Part shown: in pieces, positions 3,584-34,061 of the stretch
Numbering within the stretch: the stretch's first letter is position 1
Layout of the letters: every line of letters starts with the position of its first letter
Virus record (IMG/VR): IMGVR_UViG_3300048772_000123
Coordinates: 1 to 34,061 of that record
Source of the DNA: a virus
DNA: 34,061 bases
Direction: 5' to 3' (one strand)
Translations under genes and position numbers: made by a program
The notes under the pieces: model-generated
The model's input: the letters and a program-made list of their open reading frames with translations, nothing else
Told to the model about the DNA's origin: nothing
Database searches by the model: none

Positions 3584-3600
3584 ACTCCAAAATTTGGAAT
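3584..3600. repeat. Dispersed palindrome copy 1
   Basis: On the minus strand this copy is ATTCCAAATTTTGGAGT. It begins on the final base of the TAA stop of the 3600-4067 gene. Its downstream arm is GGAG rather than GGAA and is positioned as the ribosome binding site of the GTG at 3577. Confidence 0.9.
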
Positions 3601-25782: not shown

Positions 25783-26335
25783 GCCCATTCTCCTCATTCC
25801 TTCTTGTTTGTGCTCTGCGCATTGCTTTCCAATTGTGAAATCGTTCCAGAACCTCTTTCCTGCGCCGCTCTGGAACCCTGTCAACGAAAAATGTTCCCGT
25901 CAGATGATCGAGTTCATGTTGAACGATTCTCGCCACCGATCCCCTAAACGTCAACTTCTTTCGCTCGTATGGAGTTTCTGCTAGAGAAGCCTCAACGTCG
26001 ACGATTTCAAGCCGTGGCACCATGCACTCATTTCCCGAAGGCGGCAAACTTAAACAGCCCTCCGGTTCCTTAATCTCTTTTCCGTACAACCTAGTGATCT
26101 CCGGGTTCACTAAACCAATGACTATTCCGTGACTCCTGCCGATCAATACGAATTGCTTGAAGCATCCTATCTGCGGAGCCGCCAATCCCAGTCCATCAGC
26201 CTTTCGCATCACTTCTAGCATGTACTCGAACAATTTCGGAATCTCCGGCCACTCAGCCTCTTCGACAGGCTTCGCAAGGATGTTGTTCATCTCTGGCCCA
26301 TAAATAGAGAGCCTAAAATTCCTCTGAAAGTACAT
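25730..26335 (-). CDS. def: Peptide deformylase
   Basis: This 201-residue protein shows all three deformylase motifs: GLGLAAPQ (48-55), EGCLS (92-96) and QHELDH (139-144). The Cys and two His bind the catalytic metal and the Glu is the base. It removes formyl from N-formylmethionine of nascent proteins. ATG 26335 has GAGGG before it; a GTG nine bases upstream is also possible. The C-terminus is longer and more basic than in cyanophage forms. The presence of intact motifs suggests it is active. Confidence 0.93.
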   Translation of the reverse strand: MYFQRNFRLSIYGPEMNNILAKPVEEAEWPEIPKLFEYMLEVMRKADGLGLAAPQIGCFKQFVLIGRSHGIVIGLVNPEITRLYGKEIKEPEGCLSLPPSGNECMVPRLEIVDVEASLAETPYERKKLTFRGSVARIVQHELDHLTGTFFVDRVPERRRKEVLERFHNWKAMRRAQTRRNEENGHVNTGPFAVSRGQSRVS

Positions 26336-26340
26336 TGCCC

Positions 26341-26808
26341 TCACCTGGGTACAACAATACTCCCAGCAGCCCTCGACCGTTCGGCCTTGAACATAATCTC
26401 AATTGCTTCAGGGATAGCCGAGTTGCCAATCAATTCAAGACGATCTGTGTCCGCCCTCAACCATTGAGGCATATACATCTTATGCGTAGCGCACCGCGTC
26501 CCCCTGGCGCACTCGCAACCAAGAAAAGTGTCAAGCCGCTCTCGCGCCTTCGCGGTCCAGTCAAAATGTTCGGGGTAGATTTGCGGCAGAAAATAATCGG
26601 CGCAGAAGCATAGACCGTCAGACCTCAACCCAACGGCTCTGCCGGTCACTATCGGTCCAGCGTTGCTCGGAACCAAGACAATCATGTAGCCGACGTTTTT
26701 CCACGATGACGTGTCGGCTGCGGGTTGACTTTCTGGAACCGCAATTACTTCCGTGGTTGGCGATTCCTGCTTCTCTTTGCGCCGGTCAATTACCTCAAAA
26801 TTCGACAA
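26341..26808 (-). CDS. Hypothetical protein (155 aa), TTG start
   Basis: A 155-residue ORF starts at a TTG at 26808, preceded by a GGGGGAAG tract. The first 35 residues are polar and disordered. The rest is a compact domain containing LGCECARGTRCATH, a Cys/His cluster. It overlaps the deformylase region by a few bases. The family is unknown. Confidence 0.72.
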   Translation of the reverse strand: MSNFEVIDRRKEKQESPTTEVIAVPESQPAADTSSWKNVGYMIVLVPSNAGPIVTGRAVGLRSDGLCFCADYFLPQIYPEHFDWTAKARERLDTFLGCECARGTRCATHKMYMPQWLRADTDRLELIGNSAIPEAIEIMFKAERSRAAGSIVVPR

Positions 26809-26983
26809 TGTAATCTTCCCCCTCGCTGGTTATGGTTTCACCCGGCAGTAGGCAGTACGCGAACGCTACGCGGCTATCATTCTTCGCAACGATCTCTCGA
26901 AGGACTACGCATGATCCTTCTATCTCGACGTAGCCTTTAGCTACCGAACGCTTTCCCCCGTTCTTTATTTTCAGACTTGCCAT
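26795..26983 (-). CDS. Small hypothetical protein (62 aa)
   Basis: A 62-residue beta-rich protein with AAGGAG ahead of its ATG. It has a basic start and an acidic end and overlaps the next gene by 14 bases. No recognised domain. Confidence 0.72.
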   Translation of the reverse strand: MASLKIKNGGKRSVAKGYVEIEGSCVVLREIVAKNDSRVAFAYCLLPGETITSEGEDYIVEF

Positions 26984-26993
26984 TGCTCACTCC

Positions 26994-27281
26994 TTAGTTC
27001 GGCTTTGGTTTGTTTTGATCGATGGCATCCTTGATGTTCGACACCATCATTTGATTCTCTCCGGTTTTGAATCCCTCACGCGCCTGTTGCTCAAAAGCAA
27101 TAGACGTTGTTTTTGATGCAACCTTTAGAACCCCAATCTGGAGCGCAAAGTCTATGAAGTTAACCTGCATCTCCAAACCCATAGGAGAATGCACGATCAC
27201 GATAATCGGACACCCCTCGCGCTCCTTCAAATGGTTCTGGACCGCCTGCATGAATCCTTCGTGGGTCATAGGGGACTCCAT
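26994..27281 (-). CDS. Small hypothetical protein (95 aa)
   Basis: A 95-residue alpha/beta protein (QAVQNHLKEREGCPIIVIVHS...FIDFALQIGVLKVASK) with a polar C-terminus. It overlaps the preceding stop in TAATG. Function unknown. Confidence 0.72.
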   Translation of the reverse strand: MESPMTHEGFMQAVQNHLKEREGCPIIVIVHSPMGLEMQVNFIDFALQIGVLKVASKTTSIAFEQQAREGFKTGENQMMVSNIKDAIDQNKPKPN

Positions 27282-27535
27282 TAGTTCACCGCCGCTCTGT
27301 GTGTGATAATCGTTCGGTCCTGAGAGTAAATCTCAGTGATCTTTGGGTGGCAAGCGCAGTCACGCCCCAAGTTGTGAACCCCAAAGTTCAACCGCTGCGG
27401 GTCCGGCTCCTCTTTGAAGGGAACAATATGAGCCACGTTGTCGTAGCGAGGGTCTTCAGGATCGAAGTCTGTCGACGGAGTAATAATCTCCAATGCTCCG
27501 CTCTCCACGTTCTTGACTACGACCAGCCAGCGCAT
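27281..27535 (-). CDS. Small hypothetical protein (84 aa)
   Basis: An 84-residue ORF coupled to both neighbours (TAATG). The C-terminal part holds LGRDCACHPKITEIYSQDRTIITH, a possible Cys/His site. No known family. Confidence 0.72.
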   Translation of the reverse strand: MRWLVVVKNVESGALEIITPSTDFDPEDPRYDNVAHIVPFKEEPDPQRLNFGVHNLGRDCACHPKITEIYSQDRTIITHRAAVN

Positions 27536-27855
27536 TACTTCTTTCCCTTCCCAAAGAATTCCGCGATCTTGGCTTCAATCGCCAGCACTCGCGGGTCGGC
27601 AGGGCGCCGCTTGATGCGGATCTCAAGATAGTACGTGTTCGGAATCTTGTCCGGGTTCGGGTTGTCGTTCTGGTGGAAGTCCCACTCAAACACCCCGGTA
27701 TCCCACTCGTAGGTCGTTGAGCCCCACTGAACCTTCGACTGGTTCTGCTGAATCGGAAGCCGGAACGCCTGATGCAGCAGCGTCTTTAGTTCGGCCCACT
27801 CCTCAACCGTGACGTTCTCGTACTTTGTTACTTCGTTTGCGAATTTCTCTTTCAT
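27535..27855 (-). CDS. Small hypothetical protein (106 aa)
   Basis: The ATG at 27855 overlaps the preceding TGA (ATGA), and AAGGAG lies about ten bases before it. The 106-residue product starts with a charged helix and continues with Trp-rich strands (VQWGSTTYEWDTGVFEWDFHQND) and a Lys-rich end. Function unknown. Confidence 0.74.
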   Translation of the reverse strand: MKEKFANEVTKYENVTVEEWAELKTLLHQAFRLPIQQNQSKVQWGSTTYEWDTGVFEWDFHQNDNPNPDKIPNTYYLEIRIKRRPADPRVLAIEAKIAEFFGKGKK

Positions 27856-28058
27856 GCTGTCTGTTCTCCTTCTTTGTTCTCTGGTGCGTGATTCTCGAAC
27901 GGCAGAACCGGATTCTTTGCCGCTCGCTTTCCATGCCCTCGCGTCCACGGCCAGATGTAGCGGCCGGCGAACCAAATGCTCAATCCGGGGTTCAATGAAT
28001 TCTTCGGACCCAGGTAGATCCCGAACTTCAAATCCTTTTGCGTCAGTCGGACTTTCAT
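27852..28058 (-). CDS. Small basic hypothetical protein (68 aa)
   Basis: A 68-residue ORF with GAGGGAG before its ATG. It is Lys/Trp/Gly-rich, possibly a nucleic-acid-binding or membrane-associated peptide. No recognised domain. Confidence 0.72.
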   Translation of the reverse strand: MKVRLTQKDLKFGIYLGPKNSLNPGLSIWFAGRYIWPWTRGHGKRAAKNPVLPFENHAPENKEGEQTA

Positions 28059-28061
28059 GGA

Positions 28062-28247
28062 CTACTCCCTCTTCCATTGGTAGCCGCGAAGAACTAACTC
28101 CTGAAGCGCTAAATACCTCGCCTCTGTTGGCGTTGGCATCGTGTCTTCGTTGTTGTCGAGAAGGATTTCCACCAACCGCTTGTCGCTCGGCGCCTTGCGC
28201 TTGATTGCCGCCCTCGCTTCATCCGTCAGTACGATTGTCTTTTTCAT
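28062..28247 (-). CDS. Small hypothetical protein (61 aa)
   Basis: A 61-residue helical protein. The ATG at 28247 is preceded, with correct spacing, by GGAG that is the right arm of the palindrome at 28252-28268. Function unknown. Confidence 0.72.
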   Translation of the reverse strand: MKKTIVLTDEARAAIKRKAPSDKRLVEILLDNNEDTMPTPTEARYLALQELVLRGYQWKRE

Positions 28248-28251
28248 CGCC

Positions 28252-28268
28252 ACTCCAAATTTTGGAAT
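28252..28268. repeat. Dispersed palindrome copy 6
   Basis: On the minus strand this copy is ATTCCAAAATTTGGAGT. It lies between genes and supplies GGAG for the 28247 start. A GCGGTTTTGGA leader motif abuts it. Confidence 0.9.
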
Positions 28269-28287
28269 CCAAAACCGCTCAGTCGTC

Positions 28288-28494
28288 CTATCGCCGCGTG
28301 ATGACATCCTTCAAAATTAAGGTCTTCGCCATCTCCAGCATCCCCAACCGCGTCGACAAAACCGATGTCGATCCGAGTGTGATGATGTCGCCGCCGGCTT
28401 CAGTCATAATCACAAGACACTCGACCGCATCGCCAACCTCTTCCATCGCCTTGACCAGCGTCTCTGTCGGAGTCCTCTTGATTACATCGCCCAT
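28288..28494 (-). CDS. Small hypothetical protein (68 aa)
   Basis: The start was set at ATG 28494 because GGAAGGG precedes it. The product (LVKAMEEVGDAVECLVIMTEAGGDIITLGSTSVLSTRLGMLEMAKTLIL) resembles a small alpha/beta phage protein type I have seen often. The specific role is unknown. Confidence 0.74.
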   Translation of the reverse strand: MGDVIKRTPTETLVKAMEEVGDAVECLVIMTEAGGDIITLGSTSVLSTRLGMLEMAKTLILKDVITRR

Positions 28495-28499
28495 TCTTA

Positions 28500-28516
28500 C
28501 CCTTCCAAAAACCGCT
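28500..28516 (-). repeat. AGCGGTTTTTGGAAGGG leader repeat (copy 1)
   Basis: On the minus strand a 17-base sequence AGCGGTTTTTGGAAGGG precedes the start of the 28288-28494 gene and contains its ribosome binding site. The identical sequence precedes the adjacent gene. Confidence 0.8.
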
Positions 28517-28721
28517 AGACTTTTCTCCATCGGTCCCTGCCGCCGACATATATATCGCGGACGCGCTCAACGTAAATCACTGCCTCCGGATTCATCCCCC
28601 GCGCTCGCTCAATGGCTTTGGCTTGGGTTGGGAGAATCGCGCTGGCCCGTTCCGAACCCGGCCTCCGTATCGCATACTCGCCGGTCCTTGTCTTCTCGAT
28701 GTACAGTTCAGACTTTGCCAT
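28515..28721 (-). CDS. DUF2188-like protein (68 aa)
   Basis: The 68-residue product reads YIEKTRTGEYAIRRPGSERASAILPTQAKAIERARGMNPEAVIYVERVRDIYVGGRDRW. This fits the small DUF2188 pattern: a paired-strand start, TQxxAIERA helix, and a final GRD-type strand. Function in phages is unknown. ATG 28721 has GAAGGGG before it. Confidence 0.75.
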   Translation of the reverse strand: MAKSELYIEKTRTGEYAIRRPGSERASAILPTQAKAIERARGMNPEAVIYVERVRDIYVGGRDRWRKV

Positions 28722-28726
28722 TCGAC

Positions 28727-28743
28727 CCCTTCCAAAAACCGCT
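28727..28743 (-). repeat. AGCGGTTTTTGGAAGGG leader repeat (copy 2)
   Basis: An identical 17-base copy of the leader motif at 28500-28516. A third shorter form (AGCGGTTTTGG) lies at 28269-28279. Confidence 0.8.
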
Positions 28744-28787
28744 CGAAAACCGCCAGCCCGCGCCAGCGGGCACCGTCGTGCCACGCA

Positions 28788-28973
28788 TTACACTAACTCT
28801 TCAACTCGACTCACATTCGACAACGCAGCGAACTGAATCAACTTACCATCCTCCACGCGGAACAAATCCACATATTCTGTCCCGCACGACCAGAAGTGAC
28901 ACTGCCACTCCTCCGGTGCATTATTGTGAAATGTCACCTTCAACCTGATCGGTCTCACCGCTTCCGTATTCAA
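28788..28973 (-). CDS. Small hypothetical protein (61 aa)
   Basis: A 61-residue frame from a TTG at 28973 is favoured because GGAGGG lies three bases before it, the same spacing as another gene in this window. A GTG at 29021 would give 77 residues. The protein is mixed alpha/beta with one conserved-looking CHFWSCGTEYV segment. Function unknown. Confidence 0.65.
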   Translation of the reverse strand: MNTEAVRPIRLKVTFHNNAPEEWQCHFWSCGTEYVDLFRVEDGKLIQFAALSNVSRVEELV

Positions 28974-29021
28974 TATCCCTCCAACCTTTCTGCCTACATC
29001 CACATCATTGCACATCTTCAC

Positions 29022-29381
29022 GCTTTTGTGTTGACCAACTCAAATACACAACTTTTCAAAACTTCAAAACTGCTTACATCATTTCAACTTCTTGGATTTT
29101 GAAAATCTGTTCGCTGGACCAGTCGCGTAGCGACCGGACCCCCACCCCACCCCCTTGCGCCGGGTCCGTTGCGGCGTGCGTGCTGGGCGGTGGGCGCTGG
29201 CCGTGGCAGGGCGGCGGGGCAGGGGCAGGGCAGGCGGGAGGGGCTGGGCCAAGCTGCGGAAGGCGAAGCGGAGGCAGGGTACCGGGACCGATGGAAGGCT
29301 CAAGAATGGCACCGGGTGGCGTCAATCATTAGAAGTGGGCGCGGTGAAGCTGGTACAGGGTGCCATGAGGCAGGCGAAACT
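29022..29381. other. Gene-poor region with GC island and AT-rich repeats
   Basis: No convincing gene is seen in this 360-base stretch. From 29139 to 29290 it is very GC-rich, unlike its surroundings. The plus strand has six runs of three or more G between 29216 and 29248 (potential quadruplex). The minus strand has three longer G runs (G5, G4, G5) between 29139 and 29154. Next to it, 29040-29107 is AT-rich with a tandem TTCAAAAC and the inverted repeat GATTTT-G-AAAATC (29095-29107). A proline-rich frame in the GC island is probably spurious. Confidence 0.6.
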
Positions 29382-29425
29382 GCCATGCTGTAGTATGTCC
29401 AGCTTGGCTGCGATGCGTCCTAGAG
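29382..29425 (-). promoter_or_regulatory. Bipartite promoter-like element, copy 1
   Basis: On the minus strand CTCTAGG, 18 bases, GGACATACTA, two bases, GCATGGC. The same arrangement with identical spacing occurs at 30532-30575. Both copies lie downstream of an intrinsic terminator, where a new promoter would be expected. Confidence 0.6.
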
Positions 29426-29457
29426 GCGCTGGTCAGGCCGTTTCAGGACACAACAAA

Positions 29458-29477
29458 GCCCCAGACGTATCTGGGGC
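29458..29477 (-). terminator. Intrinsic terminator, leftward
   Basis: On the minus strand GCCCCAGA, loop TACG, TCTGGGGC, then TTTGTTGT. It lies 20 bases after the stop of the 29498-29680 gene. Confidence 0.85.
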
Positions 29478-29497
29478 CAGTCTTGCCGATCCTGCCG

Positions 29498-29680
29498 CTA
29501 GTCGAGGTAGAGCCGGGTATTGATGTTCTTGAACTGGTCTTTGCCGTTGTAGGTTCCCATGTACATCCAGCCTCCGGCGTAGTTCCATTCCCCATCTTTG
29601 CCGCTGAGCCTGCCTGCTGCTATCGCCTCTTCAAATGCCTGCCTGCTGTCCTTGAATACTGGTGCTGTCGTGGTTGCCAT
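29498..29680 (-). CDS. Small hypothetical protein (60 aa)
   Basis: A 60-residue ORF with GGAGGG before its ATG. It begins helical (FKDSRQAFEEAIAAGRL) and ends in Tyr/Asn/Gly-rich strands (NYAGGWMYMGTYNGKDQF). It is flanked by two terminators and so appears to be its own transcription unit. Function unknown. Confidence 0.75.
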   Translation of the reverse strand: MATTTAPVFKDSRQAFEEAIAAGRLSGKDGEWNYAGGWMYMGTYNGKDQFKNINTRLYLD

Positions 29681-29734
29681 GTTCCCTCCTGCGGTCTTGC
29701 CGCATCCCCAACTTATCGCGGCTCAGGGCAAAAG

Positions 29735-29759
29735 AAAAGCCCCCACCGAAGTAGGGGCG
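29735..29759 (-). terminator. Intrinsic terminator with UUCG tetraloop, leftward
   Basis: On the minus strand CCCCTAC, TTCG, GTGGGGG, followed by CTTTTCTTTT. The stem has a G-U wobble that would be an A-C mismatch on the other strand, fixing the direction. Confidence 0.88.
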
Positions 29760-29776
29760 ATTCCAAAGTTTGGAAA
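29760..29776. repeat. Dispersed palindrome copy 7 (central G variant)
   Basis: Plus-strand sequence ATTCCAAAGTTTGGAAA; the central base is G, showing that the centre is free while both arms are kept. It lies four bases past the stop of the 29781 gene and directly before a strong terminator. Confidence 0.88.
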
Positions 29777-29780
29777 GTTT

Positions 29781-30089
29781 CTACTGTATGACGTGCTGCC
29801 GCTTGCCGTTCTGCTCGATCACCGTATCTCTGTTGAGGTAGCCGATTATGCTGCTCTCTGAGAGTGGAGCCGTCGCCCTGGTGTGAAACTCTCCATAGCT
29901 CAGCGCGAACCCTGGCAGGGCGCGTACTGCGTTGTAGGCCGTCGCTACCAGACAATCAACCACATACAGATAGTCGCTCATGCCGCCGCGCTGCGCGTGG
30001 TCAAGCTCCTGAATACCGTTCGTGCGGATCGTGCCGGAAACTTCCGCGATGACTCGATCAATGATCTTTGATGCTTCCAAATGGTTCAT
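29781..30089 (-). CDS. Hypothetical protein (102 aa)
   Basis: The ATG at 30089 is preceded by GGAGGG with seven-base spacing. The product is helical at the start (EASKIIDRVIAEVSGTIR) with an ALPGFALSYGEFHTRATAPLSESSIIGYL region. It is followed by a palindrome and a terminator. No family recognised. Confidence 0.74.
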   Translation of the reverse strand: MNHLEASKIIDRVIAEVSGTIRTNGIQELDHAQRGGMSDYLYVVDCLVATAYNAVRALPGFALSYGEFHTRATAPLSESSIIGYLNRDTVIEQNGKRQHVIQ

Positions 30090-30093
30090 GGTT

Positions 30094-30306
30094 CTACCCT
30101 CCAAACAGCGTCGGGTTAACCTTGCCGAAGAACAGAGGAGAATCATTCTCCATGCTCCCGGCTCGGTGGTTGATGTCGGCGAGGGGCTTTAGCATCTCTG
30201 CGGTTAGCTCCTCGGCTTGCATTGCGGCTGCGGCCTGGGACTGCTCTTGTACGGCCGTCTCCATGCCGGCGAAGGTGTGAGAGGTTACAGGGCGATGCTT
30301 TGCCAT
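30094..30306 (-). CDS. Small hypothetical protein (70 aa)
   Basis: A 70-residue ORF with a Gln/Glu/Ala-rich helix in the middle and a Pro/Gly/Phe-rich C-terminus. Its stop lies in the ribosome binding site of the following gene. Function unknown. Confidence 0.7.
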   Translation of the reverse strand: MAKHRPVTSHTFAGMETAVQEQSQAAAAMQAEELTAEMLKPLADINHRAGSMENDSPLFFGKVNPTLFGG

Positions 30307-30467
30307 ACGTCAATCCTTCCTTGAGTCCGCTTCCATCCCTGCCGGTCAAGCTCAGCCGTCAAGGTCTTGTCGTTGTAGTCCGCTGCCGGGAGTTTGATCT
30401 CTCCGCGCCGATCCGCTTCGATTACTGCGTTGATCTCTGCGGCTGTGAACTTGCTTGCTAGTTGCAT
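30285..30467 (-). CDS. Small hypothetical protein (60 aa)
   Basis: The ATG at 30467 has GGAGGG seven bases upstream. An in-frame ATG at 30536 coincides with the bipartite promoter-like element and could give an 83-residue form. The 60-residue product is acidic/helical with a WKRTQGRIDVWQS end. It overlaps the next gene by 22 bases. Confidence 0.7.
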   Translation of the reverse strand: MQLASKFTAAEINAVIEADRRGEIKLPAADYNDKTLTAELDRQGWKRTQGRIDVWQSIAL

Positions 30468-30531
30468 TGTGTTTCCCTCCGTAGTTGCATCATCCTCCAG
30501 TCTCAGCCGGTCTTCAAGTACCCTCAAAAGC

Positions 30532-30575
30532 GCCATGCCCTAGTATGTCCGACCGTCTACGGAGAGCGCCTAGAG
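30532..30575 (-). promoter_or_regulatory. Bipartite promoter-like element, copy 2
   Basis: On the minus strand CTCTAGG, 18 bases, GGACATACTA, two bases, GCATGGC. This matches copy 1 in both boxes and spacing. It lies 26 bases after a strong terminator. Confidence 0.6.
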
Positions 30576-30600
30576 CCTCTGAGCGGGGGTTTTGGACGTG

Positions 30601-30627
30601 AAAAAGGCCGATCCCGAAGGACCGGCC
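30601..30627 (-). terminator. Intrinsic terminator with UUCG tetraloop, leftward
   Basis: On the minus strand GGCCGGTCC, TTCG, GGATCGGCC, TTTTT. Nine base pairs with one G-U wobble and a clean U-tract make it the strongest terminator in the window. Confidence 0.92.
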
Positions 30628-30645
30628 CATTCTCGCACTCGCGCT

Positions 30646-30879
30646 CTACTGGGTAATTCCGTCCATTGCTTCCCATATGCAGGTCTGGTTATACTTTGCT
30701 CCGTCTGGTGTCTTCTGTCCGGTTAGCTCTGCCGCCAGCTTGCGCGATGCCCTGCCGCGTCCATACCTCAACACGAGGTCTACAGCGCGGCGATAGAGCG
30801 GTTCGTCATTGTTGATCCACAGCGAGACATTCCAAGCGTTCCAACTGCGATGCCCTTGATACTCTTTTGACTTCCCCAT
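30646..30879 (-). CDS. Small hypothetical phage protein (77 aa)
   Basis: The ATG is preceded by GGAGGG. The product reads YQGHRSWNAWNVSLWINNDEPLYRRAVDLVLRYG, resembling a small phage protein type whose start is typically W.TWNVALWI.N....Y. I recognise the pattern but not a function. It is followed by the strong terminator at 30601-30627. Confidence 0.78.
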   Translation of the reverse strand: MGKSKEYQGHRSWNAWNVSLWINNDEPLYRRAVDLVLRYGRGRASRKLAAELTGQKTPDGAKYNQTCIWEAMDGITQ

Positions 30880-30912
30880 TGTTGCACCCTCCGCCAGCCT
30901 TCCGGCCAGCCG

Positions 30913-31041
30913 TTACCATGCTACCAACTCGTAGATTGCTGCATACACCAGCAACCCAAACGCTACCGCTCCGGCAAACCCTTTTACCTGTCTCCAAGTC
31001 TTCGGGTCGCCGTTCATCAGGTTGTAAATCCATTCATCCAT
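30913..31041 (-). CDS. Micro-membrane protein (42 aa)
   Basis: A 42-residue frame starts on the last base of the preceding TGA (TGATG). A polar N-terminus with three Trp/Tyr is followed by a single transmembrane helix, FAGAVAFGLLVYAAIYELV. It is the third of three coupled micro-membrane genes. Function unknown. Confidence 0.65.
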   Translation of the reverse strand: MDEWIYNLMNGDPKTWRQVKGFAGAVAFGLLVYAAIYELVAW

Positions 31042-31178
31042 CACAGCACCAGCCCGATCAAAAGCATTATGCCGGCTGCAACGATCCACAACGACCTGTA
31101 CACGGCGCGGCTTTGCGTCCACTTCGCCCAGGTCAGGAATACCGCTAGAGCGATTACCAAACCCCACGGAACTACCAT
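31041..31178 (-). CDS. Micro-membrane protein with two TM helices (45 aa)
   Basis: A 45-residue frame with helices VVPWGLVIALAVFLTW and SLWIVAAGIMLLIGLVL separated by a short basic loop. The start overlaps the preceding stop and the stop overlaps the next start. Size and topology could suit a small holin-like protein, but no diagnostic feature is present. Confidence 0.65.
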   Translation of the reverse strand: MVVPWGLVIALAVFLTWAKWTQSRAVYRSLWIVAAGIMLLIGLVL

Positions 31179-31258
31179 ACAGCCACCTTTCCCAGCCGCC
31201 ACGACACGAAAACCGCCGCAGCAGCTACCCCAACAAAGAACCCAATCACGTAGGCCAT
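31172..31258 (-). CDS. Micro-membrane protein (28 aa)
   Basis: A 28-residue frame preceded by GGAGGG and consisting of a single hydrophobic helix (VIGFFVGVAAAAVFVSW) and a short basic end. Very small but with a good ribosome binding site, and it starts the coupled trio. Confidence 0.6.
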   Translation of the reverse strand: MAYVIGFFVGVAAAAVFVSWRLGKVAVW

Positions 31259-31312
31259 AAGCCCTCCATGACCCAACTATGCCCCCAAACCGCTACGGGT
31301 TCAAGGGGTCAC

Positions 31313-31657
31313 TTAACTGATCTGGCTTCCCATCCGGTGATTAGATCTGTGGCCCAAAGGAAGTTTGCAGCGGTAGGTCTCCCCAATATCCGAAACGTAC
31401 TCGGTGTATTCGCATATTGGTTCCTCGCTCTCGATCTCTCGTGCCTCGATCTGTCGCACTCGCTCTATTAGCGGGATCGCTCTCGGCGTCTCTGGCTTCT
31501 TCTCGATAATCATTTGCGCAGCCTTCTCCCCGTCGCTATCGCTGTTCCATATCCTCGTTCGACACTTCGCGCACTGCTTCGGGGTTACGCCCGCCTGCTT
31601 CAACCAAACATGCCCGCATAGGTCGCACTTCCACGCTTCAATCGTTATACATGCCAT
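31313..31657 (-). CDS. Zinc-ribbon protein, possibly leaderless
   Basis: The 114-residue product starts MACITIEAWKCDLCGHVWLKQAGVTPKQCAKCRTRIWN, a compact four-Cys ribbon, followed by a charged helical region and a C-terminal Cys pair. The ATG at 31657 lies seven bases after a TACAAT -10 box, where transcription would begin, and has no ribosome binding site. An upstream in-frame start at 31741 would place the promoter inside the gene. The family is unknown; it may be a DNA-binding regulator. Confidence 0.72.
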   Translation of the reverse strand: MACITIEAWKCDLCGHVWLKQAGVTPKQCAKCRTRIWNSDSDGEKAAQMIIEKKPETPRAIPLIERVRQIEAREIESEEPICEYTEYVSDIGETYRCKLPLGHRSNHRMGSQIS

Positions 31658-31663
31658 GAGTGC

Positions 31664-31693
31664 ATTGTAACCAAACCCGGTGAGTGCAATCAA
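31664..31693 (-). promoter_or_regulatory. Sigma70-like promoter, leftward
   Basis: On the minus strand TTGATT (31693-31688), 18 bases, TACAAT (31669-31664). The -35 lies inside the operator-like repeat at 31679-31699. It would start RNA at or next to the ATG of the zinc-ribbon gene. Confidence 0.6.
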
Positions 31694-31699
31694 CTCACC
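31679..31699. promoter_or_regulatory. Operator-like inverted repeat 1
   Basis: GGTGAGT, 7 bases, ACTCACC is a perfect inverted repeat overlapping the -35 of the promoter. A repressor bound here would block transcription. A related copy lies at 31722-31742. Confidence 0.7.
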
Positions 31700-31721
31700 A
31701 GCCCGCTTTTCTCCACTTCTT

Positions 31722-31742
31722 GGTGAGCGCAACACACTCACT
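31722..31742. promoter_or_regulatory. Operator-like repeat 2
   Basis: This 21-base sequence is identical to the first at 16 of 21 positions and is spaced 43 bases from it, about four helical turns. The arms are imperfect. Spacing on one face would allow looping or cooperative binding. Confidence 0.6.
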
Positions 31743-31750
31743 AGCCCTGC

Positions 31751-31936
31751 CTACGGTACTGTAGTACCACATTCGAGCGTATTTATAGGGCGCTCCAGAG
31801 GGCCGAGGAAAGGCTCATCCATCGCGGTCTTTTCGGCTGGCTGTGGTTGTGGTTTGTCTGTGTCGGTGTAATTGGTGAGGGCGTCTGCAAGCGTTACTGA
31901 TTTTGGTGTGGGATGGGCAAGAGAAAGCCCGCGCAC
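31751..31936 (-). CDS. Doubtful small ORF (61 aa)
   Basis: A 61-residue frame starts at a GTG with no ribosome binding site. It is Pro/Thr/Glu-rich. The region also holds an inverted repeat GGTACT-N2-AGTACC (31755-31768) and a weak terminator-like stem (AGCCCG...CGGGCT). It could be a true gene or merely intergenic DNA. Confidence 0.25.
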   Translation of the reverse strand: MRGLSLAHPTPKSVTLADALTNYTDTDKPQPQPAEKTAMDEPFLGPLERPINTLECGTTVP

Positions 31937-31975
31937 TTGGGAAGGTGAACGGGCTAAAGTAGTTAATGTTGTGTT

Positions 31976-32194
31976 TTAACTGGCTTCGGTCTCGCAGATT
32001 CCGGTCAGGATGTACTTGTCTGTCCAGTCGATGCCGCAAGCATTGCAGTGCATATCCTGAAGCGCCAACCCATCGTTAATGGAAATGTCTCCACCTTGCA
32101 GGTCGCCGCTTTCGCATTGCGGGCAAACTACGCCAAGGCTTGAGACGTACTCCTCTTCTTGGTGTTTGGTGATTGCTGCCTTCACTTGCTCCAT
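31976..32194 (-). CDS. Small zinc-ribbon protein (72 aa)
   Basis: The 72-residue product carries CPQCESGDL and later HCNACGIDW, a four-Cys ribbon. The first 20 residues are a charged helix. GAGG lies before the ATG. Part of a run of five zinc-ribbon-like genes. Function unknown. Confidence 0.75.
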   Translation of the reverse strand: MEQVKAAITKHQEEEYVSSLGVVCPQCESGDLQGGDISINDGLALQDMHCNACGIDWTDKYILTGICETEAS

Positions 32195-32243
32195 TTAGAA
32201 TCCTCGCTTTCACTTTGGTTGTCTTCTCTGCGGTTTTGAATCA

Positions 32244-32414
32244 CTATTCGTAGTGTTTCCGCTCACAGTCCGCACAGAGAACCCATTCCCCAACGATCCC
32301 CAATTTCTCTGTGGTTCCGCAACAGTCACACCGGCTGTCGTCGTAAATCTCCGCCTTCGGTCTCCTGTTGGCGTCTATGCCCGGCTCCCGATACGGACTG
32401 TCGTCTCTTAGCAT
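32244..32414 (-). CDS. Small zinc-ribbon protein (56 aa)
   Basis: The ATG at 32414 has GGAGGG seven bases upstream. The product has CDCCGTTEKLGIVGEWVLCADCERKHYE, a four-Cys site resembling the N-terminal ribbon of HNH or DksA-like proteins. Function unknown. Confidence 0.75.
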   Translation of the reverse strand: MLRDDSPYREPGIDANRRPKAEIYDDSRCDCCGTTEKLGIVGEWVLCADCERKHYE

Positions 32415-32456
32415 CCCTATTCCCTCCATTGCGGTTTTAGGCCGTCGCCGGCCGGT

Positions 32457-32690
32457 TCAAAACAAACTCATCTGCCGCTCAGGTTCCGGCGCCCACTCTT
32501 GCACTTCCGGCTCCGCTTCCATGCGGCTTGCCACTACTGAGACTGTACCTTGCAATGCAGGCTGGTGGTAGGGGTCGGTTATGTCCCTGCCGCAGATCCC
32601 GCACTGGTACGGCTTCTTGCGGCTTTTATCCACGAAAGCATGGAAAGCCTCATCTGCCGTTGCCCAGCCGAACCTTGCTCGGTTTCTCAT
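32457..32690 (-). CDS. Cys-containing small protein with clamp-binding-like C-terminus (77 aa)
   Basis: The 77-residue product has CGICGRDITDPYH near the middle and ends with PERQMSLF. The QMSLF terminus fits the QL[SD]LF consensus of bacterial sliding-clamp binding. It may therefore attach to the replication clamp of the host. The ATG is preceded by GAGGG just after a dispersed palindrome. Confidence 0.74.
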   Translation of the reverse strand: MRNRARFGWATADEAFHAFVDKSRKKPYQCGICGRDITDPYHQPALQGTVSVVASRMEAEPEVQEWAPEPERQMSLF

Positions 32691-32700
32691 CGCACCCTCG

Positions 32701-32717
32701 ATTCCAAATTTTGGAAT
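32701..32717. repeat. Dispersed palindrome copy 8
   Basis: A perfect ATTCCAAATTTTGGAAT (plus strand) lies between genes. On the minus strand it is three bases after the TGA of the upstream gene and directly before GAGGG. Confidence 0.9.
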
Positions 32718-32720
32718 TTC

Positions 32721-32939
32721 TCAGCCCTGGTAGTTCATCACAGCTATGTCGAAGTCTTCCGCTCGCATGTCCCGCTCGTGCTGCTTCCCGCAGCCGTCGC
32801 CGGCACACATCACTTTCTTGGTTGCAGGGAAATACAAGGCATCCTCGCCTTTCTTGATGCCAAAGCCGCAGCGTGAACACTTCCCGCCGTAGCGGGTTTT
32901 CAGCCAGTACGGAGCAGTGTTTCTCTGACGGCCGCTCAC
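32721..32939 (-). CDS. Small zinc-finger-like protein (72 aa)
   Basis: The GTG at 32939 overlaps the previous TGA (GTGA). The 72-residue product carries KCSRCGFGIKKGEDALYFP...MCAGDGCGKQH, a four-Cys zinc site with C-x5-C type second half. Function unknown. Confidence 0.75.
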   Translation of the reverse strand: MSGRQRNTAPYWLKTRYGGKCSRCGFGIKKGEDALYFPATKKVMCAGDGCGKQHERDMRAEDFDIAVMNYQG

Positions 32940-33127
32940 TGGAGAACCTCGACCGCTTCCGCGATTTCCTTGATCCCTGCGTCTGCCTTCAGTTCCAATG
33001 CGAGATATTGAAGTTCTGCGCCGTCTTCCACACGGCGAACGGTAAGCTGCTCGTCGTACTCCATGATTCCAGAAAACTCCCGCTTGATGATCGTGCAAGG
33101 GTTCCCATATTGCGTAAAGATTGCCAT
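32936..33127 (-). CDS. Small hypothetical protein (63 aa)
   Basis: The ATG at 33127 has GGAGGG three bases before it, and a GCGG-TTTTG-CCGC hairpin (33137-33153) lies just upstream. The 63-residue product has no recognised domain. Confidence 0.74.
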   Translation of the reverse strand: MAIFTQYGNPCTIIKREFSGIMEYDEQLTVRRVEDGAELQYLALELKADAGIKEIAEAVEVLQ

Positions 33128-33195
33128 TATCCCTCCATGCGGTTTTGCCGCATCCCCATAGTGGAGTAGAAGAGGCTTAGATTCAAGCCCCCTGC

Positions 33196-33516
33196 TCAGG
33201 CTGGACGATACACAGAAAACCGTTGCTCGTCCTGATAGGCTGTTTCGTCTTCGACCTTGGCCGCTAGGTCCGGCCTGTTCTCGACAATCCACTTAGCCGT
33301 AGGCTGCAATTCCTCGTCAGAGCAGTTTTCCAGAACCCGCTCCACGTCTGACCGGCGAAGCTGAGCTATGCTGTCGGCTGCAATCTTGATAATGAAGTCT
33401 GGTTGCCTCATCCTATCGGCCTCCTTCCGCGCCTTGTCTACCGATGTGAAAGTTTTAGGTGAATACTGCCATCCTTCAAGGTTCTTCCAGCGGACTCTCC
33501 ACACTAGATTCTGCAT
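33196..33516 (-). CDS. Hypothetical protein (106 aa)
   Basis: The ATG at 33516 overlaps the previous gene by 13 bases with GGAGG before it. The product is helical in the middle (LRRSDVERVLENCSDEELQPTAKWIVENRPDLA). No known family. Confidence 0.72.
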   Translation of the reverse strand: MQNLVWRVRWKNLEGWQYSPKTFTSVDKARKEADRMRQPDFIIKIAADSIAQLRRSDVERVLENCSDEELQPTAKWIVENRPDLAAKVEDETAYQDEQRFSVYRPA

Positions 33517-33641
33517 GGAGCCTCCAGCGCGGCCAGGCGATAGGCTTTGATCCTGCCGGCCTTGATCCAGGCCTGAACGGTCTGGGTGGAGCAGCCGAAC
33601 AGCTCGGCAGCTTGCTTGATGGTGAGGTCAGTATGGGTCAC
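33504..33641 (-). CDS. Excisionase/MerR-type helix-turn-helix protein (45 aa)
   Basis: The GTG at 33641 overlaps the upstream stop (GTGA), with AGGAG seven bases before it. The 45-residue product reads LTIKQAAELFGCSTQTVQAWIKAGRIKAYRL, the standard small HTH (HTH_17) used by excisionases and regulators. It ends soon after the recognition helix and lacks a usual GRRWRI-type wing. It may regulate transcription or DNA recombination. No integrase is seen nearby. Confidence 0.78.
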   Translation of the reverse strand: MTHTDLTIKQAAELFGCSTQTVQAWIKAGRIKAYRLAALEAPCRI

Positions 33642-33940
33642 AGGGCGACTCCTCTCGCCTTTAGCGACTCTAGGTATGCCTCGGCACGAGTCGGTTCCGT
33701 GTGGGAGATGAGCGCCTCTTTGTCGTACCACCATGCCCACTTGAGACGCTTGCATGTTTGGCTTCCGTCGGTGCGCTGGCAACCTCCGATCAGAGTCCCA
33801 TCGAGGAGCACGAGGCGAGCGGGACAACGCAGAGTCTCAAGGCGCTTCGCCATGATCGCAGCATTCCCTTGCCGCATCTCAGACGCCCCATTGCGGGCAG
33901 TCCAGTACAGTTTGGCGATGTTATAAACAGTAACTGTCAT
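33638..33940 (-). CDS. Hypothetical protein (100 aa)
   Basis: The ATG at 33940 has GAGG six bases before it and is preferred over a GTG at 33994. The 100-residue product is basic with a CPARLVLLDGTLIGGCQ segment and a WAWWYD motif. Function unknown. Confidence 0.7.
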   Translation of the reverse strand: MTVTVYNIAKLYWTARNGASEMRQGNAAIMAKRLETLRCPARLVLLDGTLIGGCQRTDGSQTCKRLKWAWWYDKEALISHTEPTRAEAYLESLKARGVAL

Positions 33941-33969
33941 TGCAGCCTCTACCCGGATAACGCTCCGAG

Positions 33970-34023
33970 CTAGCGGTTTAGTGGGATATTGCACCTGGCG
34001 GATGCAGACTCTTGGTTGGTCAT
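33970..34023 (-). CDS. 17-residue frame with strong ribosome binding site
   Basis: The frame MTNQESASARCNIPLNR follows AAGGAG with ideal spacing at the right edge of the window. It overlaps an alternative start of the next gene. It may be a leader peptide or the start of a gene disrupted by a frame difference. Confidence 0.35.
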   Translation of the reverse strand: MTNQESASARCNIPLNR

Positions 34024-34061
34024 GGTCTGTCTCCTTAGATGATTGACGGTCAAGTCAGGCT

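Follow-up and report, generated by a model that had tools for sequence, protein, structure and literature searches.

We propose that a segment of a 34-kb virus record forms a self-contained unit for the control of a phage zinc-ribbon autoregulator, in which a leaderless gene lies under stacked operators of its own, specificity is set by a residue of the ribbon, and gene and operators are exchanged between phages as a cassette. To this reading, which draws on comparison among dozens of related viral sequences, we assign a probability of roughly 0.8. The zinc-ribbon protein very probably recognizes the promoter of its own gene and regulates itself, and its mode of control is probably that of an autoregulator of the autorepressor type, which would resemble NrdR or the C proteins of restriction-modification systems and be a member of neither group.

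The zinc-ribbon gene, its predicted promoter, and its putative operators

The window, i.e., the whole stretch of 34,061 nucleotides that was analyzed, carries its larger assigned genes (terminase, portal, capsid, and peptide deformylase) on the minus strand. The features of the proposed control unit are the following, with the basis of each in parentheses.

31313–31657, minus strand: 114-amino acid zinc-ribbon protein, proposed autoregulator (open reading frame [ORF], family alignment, and structure prediction).
31574–31576, minus strand: codon 28, Gln, directly before the third cysteine, proposed base-reading residue (sole base-predicting alignment column and combined tally).
31658–31672, minus strand: putative start-site operator GGTTACAATGCACTC, adjoining the ATG (position matches the full dyad of relatives).
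31664–31669, minus strand: −10 element TACAAT, separated from the ATG by 6 nt, which predicts a leaderless start (promoter search and relatives).
31679–31699, minus strand: putative operator O1, a perfect 7+7 dyad (GGTGAGT-N7-ACTCACC), GGTGAGTGCAATCAACTCACC (sequence).
31688–31693, minus strand: −35 element TTGATT, within O1 (promoter search).
31722–31742, minus strand: putative operator O2, a second dyad with two mismatches, GGTGAGCGCAACACACTCACT (sequence).
31314–31757, minus strand: exchange cassette comprising the gene with its promoter and operators, the whole of which differs in the related contig L003 (comparison of window and L003).

In the family alignment, the cysteines of the window ribbon are C11, C14, C29, and C32, accompanied by tryptophans W18 and W37, and the second knuckle is a short CxxC. 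Structure prediction gives a confident N-terminal ribbon (pLDDT >90) that is connected by a flexible linker to a small beta module at the C terminus, which contains further Cys/His residues. A fold search returned no PDB match at an E value of 0.001 and only Z scores of 2.2 to 2.4, one of them for rubrerythrin, and no fold family is therefore claimed; PADLOC returned nothing for the protein. The frame is open upstream as far as a GTG at 31741, but conservation within the family begins at the ATG at 31657 and not at this GTG. ORFs downstream of the ribbon gene are small and unassigned.

The two operator-like 21-bp repeats described in a sequence-only reading of this DNA were confirmed. The 15-bp core of the perfect dyad O1 is GAGTTGATTGCACTC (31682–31696), and O2, with the core GAGTGTGTTGCGCTC (31725–31739), is identical to O1 at 16 of 21 positions. 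Dyads of 7+7 bp with spacers of 5 to 9 bp are not rare as such (12 observed versus 11 expected); a second copy that matches the first at 16 or more of 21 positions and lies within 80 bp of it occurred once in the window and in none of 60 sequences simulated with a first-order Markov model. The overlap between O1 and the −35 element of TTGATT-N18-TACAAT was likewise borne out, TTGATT lying inside O1 with a spacer of 18 bp to the −10 element, and this is the only minus-strand promoter-like match within 26000–34061. The half-site described at the start of the gene, TGAGTGCA, is present at 31657–31664. Judged by their position, the bases directly before the ATG are a predicted third, half-conserved operator, of which only the right half (GCACTC) fits in the window. 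O1 is located 24 bp upstream of this start-site element, and O2 43 bp beyond O1.

The final T of TACAAT precedes the A of the start codon at 31657 by 7 bases, and RNA is therefore predicted to start at the ATG itself. TANNNT ∼12 bp upstream of the start codon is a published mark of leaderless bacterial genes, and such TA-led leaderless genes account for a mean of 13.3% of genes in three Acidobacteria examined (PMC3160421); the window carries this mark as TACAAT, 6 nt, and ATG. The leaderless start claimed from the sequence alone gains support from the family as well, since TACANT followed by 6 nt and ATG recurs in most of the relatives found with a dyad.

Recurrence of dyad and ribbon in viral contigs

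The first relatives of the window product to be found were L003–L006. The promoter of L003 has the dyads GGCACACTGTACC and GGTACACTGTACC, and that of L006 the dyads GGCACAATGTACC and GGTACAATGTACC, each with TACANT six bases before the ATG. Most family members found have a predicted leaderless start, and a 15-bp dyad, G-N-G-TACAATGTA-C-N′-C, adjoins the start codon, usually accompanied by a second copy; such tandem copies of the operator lie mostly 20 to 25 bp further upstream, i.e., about two helical turns. Several members have no visible operator.

Viral contigs were scanned by DNA pattern only, with one dyad type and an ATG (GGTACANTGTACC-N-ATG), and a zinc-ribbon ORF started at 28 of the 73 matches; among other ATG ORFs of at least 30 amino acids at the same loci, 2 of 9,492 were zinc ribbons. 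A second DNA-only scan, with the pattern GNGTACANTGYACNCATG, yielded zinc ribbons at 20 of 78 matches, and a third scan by protein pattern alone contributed eight further clusters with a dyad. Both DNA scans picked loci by their operator, which biases base frequencies but not the residue pairing. Matches to the window-type pattern TACAATGCACTCATG were mostly unrelated coding sequence, with L145 (on the same contig as L131) as the sole family member.

Of 10 phage records of 22 to 97 kb, 8 contain the core GTACANTGYAC a single time each, close to or directly at the start of the ribbon gene, and the exact core is absent from the other two. The only target seen from sequence is thus the ribbon gene itself, together with genes cotranscribed with it. 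Solitary occurrence of this kind argues against the dyad being a strong leaderless promoter consensus common to the hosts and palindromic by coincidence, which would be expected at many genes. As that explanation would have it, a TACAAT that precedes the ATG by six bases fits the ordinary TA-led leaderless pattern (PMC3160421), but the outer dyad bases vary as complementary pairs (GG/CC, GAG/CTC, and GTG/CAC) and the upstream copies stand where a −10 element is unnecessary, and we consider a pure promoter signal highly improbable.

Searches of the family against Pfam, PHROG, and NCBIfam gave no model at cut-off or with a convincing E value, and phage reference genomes searched with the 5-kb window region or the family ribbon gave no match. 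A genome scan with alignment A2 produced six matches; among them, the one in a Methylococcaceae MAG has the operator and the one in Edaphobacter aggregans lacks it. Among Acidobacteriota genomes, 4 of 396 had a match and none of those an operator, indicating that family members are rarely prophages in this phylum. In the open-access literature, a body without most subscription papers, we found no description of the family, nor an earlier one of phage zinc ribbons whose operators vary together with a single residue and travel with the gene.

Several further features were observed in the course of these comparisons. tRNA genes (Trp, Met, and one of unclear type) lie within the zinc-ribbon ORF of relatives (L212:2659–2734, L234:1155–1230, L224:3391–3469, and others), in the orientation and frame of that ORF and without interrupting it by stops; they are placed between the ribbon and the C-terminal Cys motif, with different tRNAs at the same place. 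Within the ribbon gene of L138, which has no leaderless promoter, four GGTACA/GGACA half-sites follow one another (CCCATTGGTACA and variants; L138:3001–3400). At L354:3451–3468, GCGTACAATGCACGC is joined directly to the ATG of a helix-turn-helix (HTH) protein; here the leaderless dyad arrangement accompanies another type of DNA-binding fold. At L250:11183–11199, a gene starts at GGTACAATGTACCTATG directly after a capsid gene whose product resembles the window's capsid protein at its C terminus. We take the product of this L250 gene to be nuclease-like. An Arg-type ribbon might have the gene as a second target; the L250 contig itself yielded no ribbon gene.

Two other repeats were seen in the window. 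A dispersed palindrome, TTCCAAAWTTTGGAA, is present at 3585, 6353, 9773, 11975, 19775, 21723, 28253, 29761, and 32702, with several copies directly after stop codons; the window has 11 matches at ≤3 mismatches versus 1.9 expected, and each of four related contigs has 5 to 21 copies, with none for a reversed-pattern control. A hairpin-like repeat, TGCGGTYTTGCCGCATCCCCA, occurs at 29690–29710 and 33138–33158 as 95% identical copies 3.4 kb apart.

Covariation of one ribbon residue with one operator base

The variable dyad base N tracks the residue before the third cysteine, with Arg accompanying G, Gln accompanying A, and His, Ser, or Thr accompanying T. The window carries Gln28 and a dyad of the GAG...CTC type. 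In the first 16 clusters compiled, the variable dyad position was complementary in 15, and the residue before Cys3 was the only alignment column that predicted the base (family-wise p = 0.007, corrected for all alignment columns). The residue rule was drawn from tabulated members found by protein and was fixed in writing before the GNGTACANTGYACNCATG scan; the new GTG...CAC families from that scan have His before Cys3, with one contradicting Gln member (L360). By our reading, the rule was kept in seven of the eight further dyad clusters from the protein-only scan, L475 being the exception. Altogether it holds in 18 of 21 clusters separated at <65% identity (permutation p below 5e-6), and under other clustering in 15 of 18 (60%) or 23 of 26 (70%). 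The clusters that break it are L360 (Gln with GTG...CAC), L475 (Gln with GTTACAATGTAAC), and L325 (Arg with another type of element); the short CxxC second knuckle of the window is also found in the latter two, and the code is therefore least secure in the window's own subtype. A near-matched switch is seen in L411 (Gln, GAG...CTC), which groups at 65% with His members (GTG...CAC). A tree from 40 alignment columns is mostly unresolved, with operator class needing at least seven changes on it; its well-supported branches carry just one independent pair, which leaves a sign test, and with it proof of phylogenetic independence, out of reach.

That compensating dyad changes track a protein residue also bears on whether the inverted repeats work in RNA, as a hairpin or terminator before a gene transcribed from an upstream promoter. 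O1 can be folded into a 9-bp stem and is terminator-like by prediction; however, a proper T-run is absent after this stem, and the dyad of relatives includes the −10 element, upstream of the predicted transcript. Taken with the covariation, these features make a role in RNA very unlikely. The autoregulation by the zinc ribbon that the sequence-only reading had put forward is instead favored by the comparison, in which the dyad varies with the ribbon and one residue predicts the base, while the HTH protein it had offered as an alternative binder (33504–33641) has no comparable link to the dyads.

Exchange of operators and ribbon as a block

The window and L003 are 97 to 98% identical in the flanks 30873–31313 and 31758–32925, and between them the block 31314–31757 is present in L003 as a divergent version of gene and promoter together, so that Gln (window) and Arg (L003) are swapped on a matched backbone. 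An independent second swap involves L212, L302, L303, L368, and L218, which have in common the end of the upstream gene, presumably terS-like, and carry three different operator-plus-ribbon versions. The residues on these matched backbones are Arg in L212, Gln in L302, and His in L368, and between L212 and L302 sequence identity resumes directly after the ribbon domain.

Dyads by themselves name no binder, and the HTH protein encoded nearby at 33504–33641 has excisionase/MerR-like similarity; another phage or host regulator might thus bind them, with the ribbon gene merely its target. We regard this as unlikely, since the dyad varies with one ribbon residue and is exchanged along with the ribbon domain while the remaining genome is kept, and the HTH gene is located beyond the exchanged block.

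Proposed mechanism and significance

In the autoregulatory loop that we favor, transcription from TTGATT/TACAAT would begin at the A of the ATG, and the product would bind its own promoter at the stacked dyads O1 and O2 and at the start site. Binding would probably be by dimers, each half-site taken by one ribbon, with neighboring dimers presumably cooperating. Occupation of the −10 element and start codon would block RNA polymerase and, because the operators cover the −35 element, −10 element, and start codon, the promoter should shut off as the protein accumulates; activation from the far site while protein levels are low is possible, as in C proteins. The residue before the third cysteine would be the main determinant of the half-site base, Gln28 going with the A of GAG (CTC). 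Since operator and ribbon adjoin, recombination would move both as one cassette, changing specificity and leaving the loop unbroken.

Phage genomes often encode small zinc-ribbon proteins that have no assigned function, and one such family here gains a candidate target, a likely function, and a putative specificity rule. The family offers naturally matched pairs of operator and protein in which a single residue apparently sets specificity, and these are accessible to single substitutions. Its leaderless layout would explain how regulator and site are exchanged by a single recombination, as between the near-identical phages here, and the operator and ribbon arrangement proves to be a recurrent, swappable unit across phages, beyond what the first reading had observed. 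More tentatively, the family might represent a new phage repressor class, a zinc ribbon with a one-residue-one-base code (Arg-G, Gln-A, and His/Ser/Thr-T) whose leaderless layout couples operator and DNA-reading domain in a swappable cassette of ∼200 to 450 bp, the alleles of which may serve as specificity groups in competition or immunity between close phages; we hold this broader proposal to be somewhat doubtful.

Comparison with known systems

In lambdoid immunity mosaics of the lambda/434 type, the operator and the DNA-binding part of the repressor are replaced as a block, and the phage family resembles these regions in such block exchange between otherwise similar phages. Lambdoid mosaics have HTH repressors and divergent promoters, whereas the phage family has one leaderless gene predicted to control itself. 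The Ogr/Delta regulators of P2-like phages are also small zinc-binding phage transcription regulators with two Cys pairs; they are late-gene activators, and comparison of the family with P2 Ogr gave an hhalign probability of only 18.7 and no Pfam match.

The zinc ribbon of the bacterial ribonucleotide reductase repressor NrdR recognizes half-palindromes within paired boxes (PMC12051234), and NrdR is by analogy the best precedent for the reading proposed here. The likeness comprises a zinc-ribbon DNA-binding domain and paired palindromes over the promoter, with one ribbon per half-palindrome and a preferred helical spacing (PMC12051234), and a pair of palindromic boxes at the putatively controlled promoter is present in the window. 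In contrast, NrdR contains an ATP-cone, is under nucleotide control, and acts on other genes, whereas the phage family has operators seen at its own gene and no ATP-cone (no match among 25 members), and box centers are spaced by ∼2 turns in the family versus 3 in NrdR. Homology was not detectable between the family profile and Escherichia coli NrdR (hhalign probability 0.4), nor did the NrdR model match in NCBIfam/Pfam scans of the family.

C proteins of restriction-modification systems autoregulate through boxes within their own promoters and have leaderless transcripts (PMC4824078). The phage family would share with them a small autoregulator, palindromic boxes in its own promoter, a leaderless transcript, and several box specificity classes (PMC4824078, PMC5282649). 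C proteins are HTH proteins (PMC5282649) and control a restriction enzyme, whereas the phage family is a predicted zinc ribbon with no restriction gene recognized downstream; family profile scans gave no HTH match, and a beta ribbon is predicted instead. The two traits characteristic of C proteins, palindromic boxes in the gene's own promoter and a leaderless start, are both found in the window, by sequence geometry alone.
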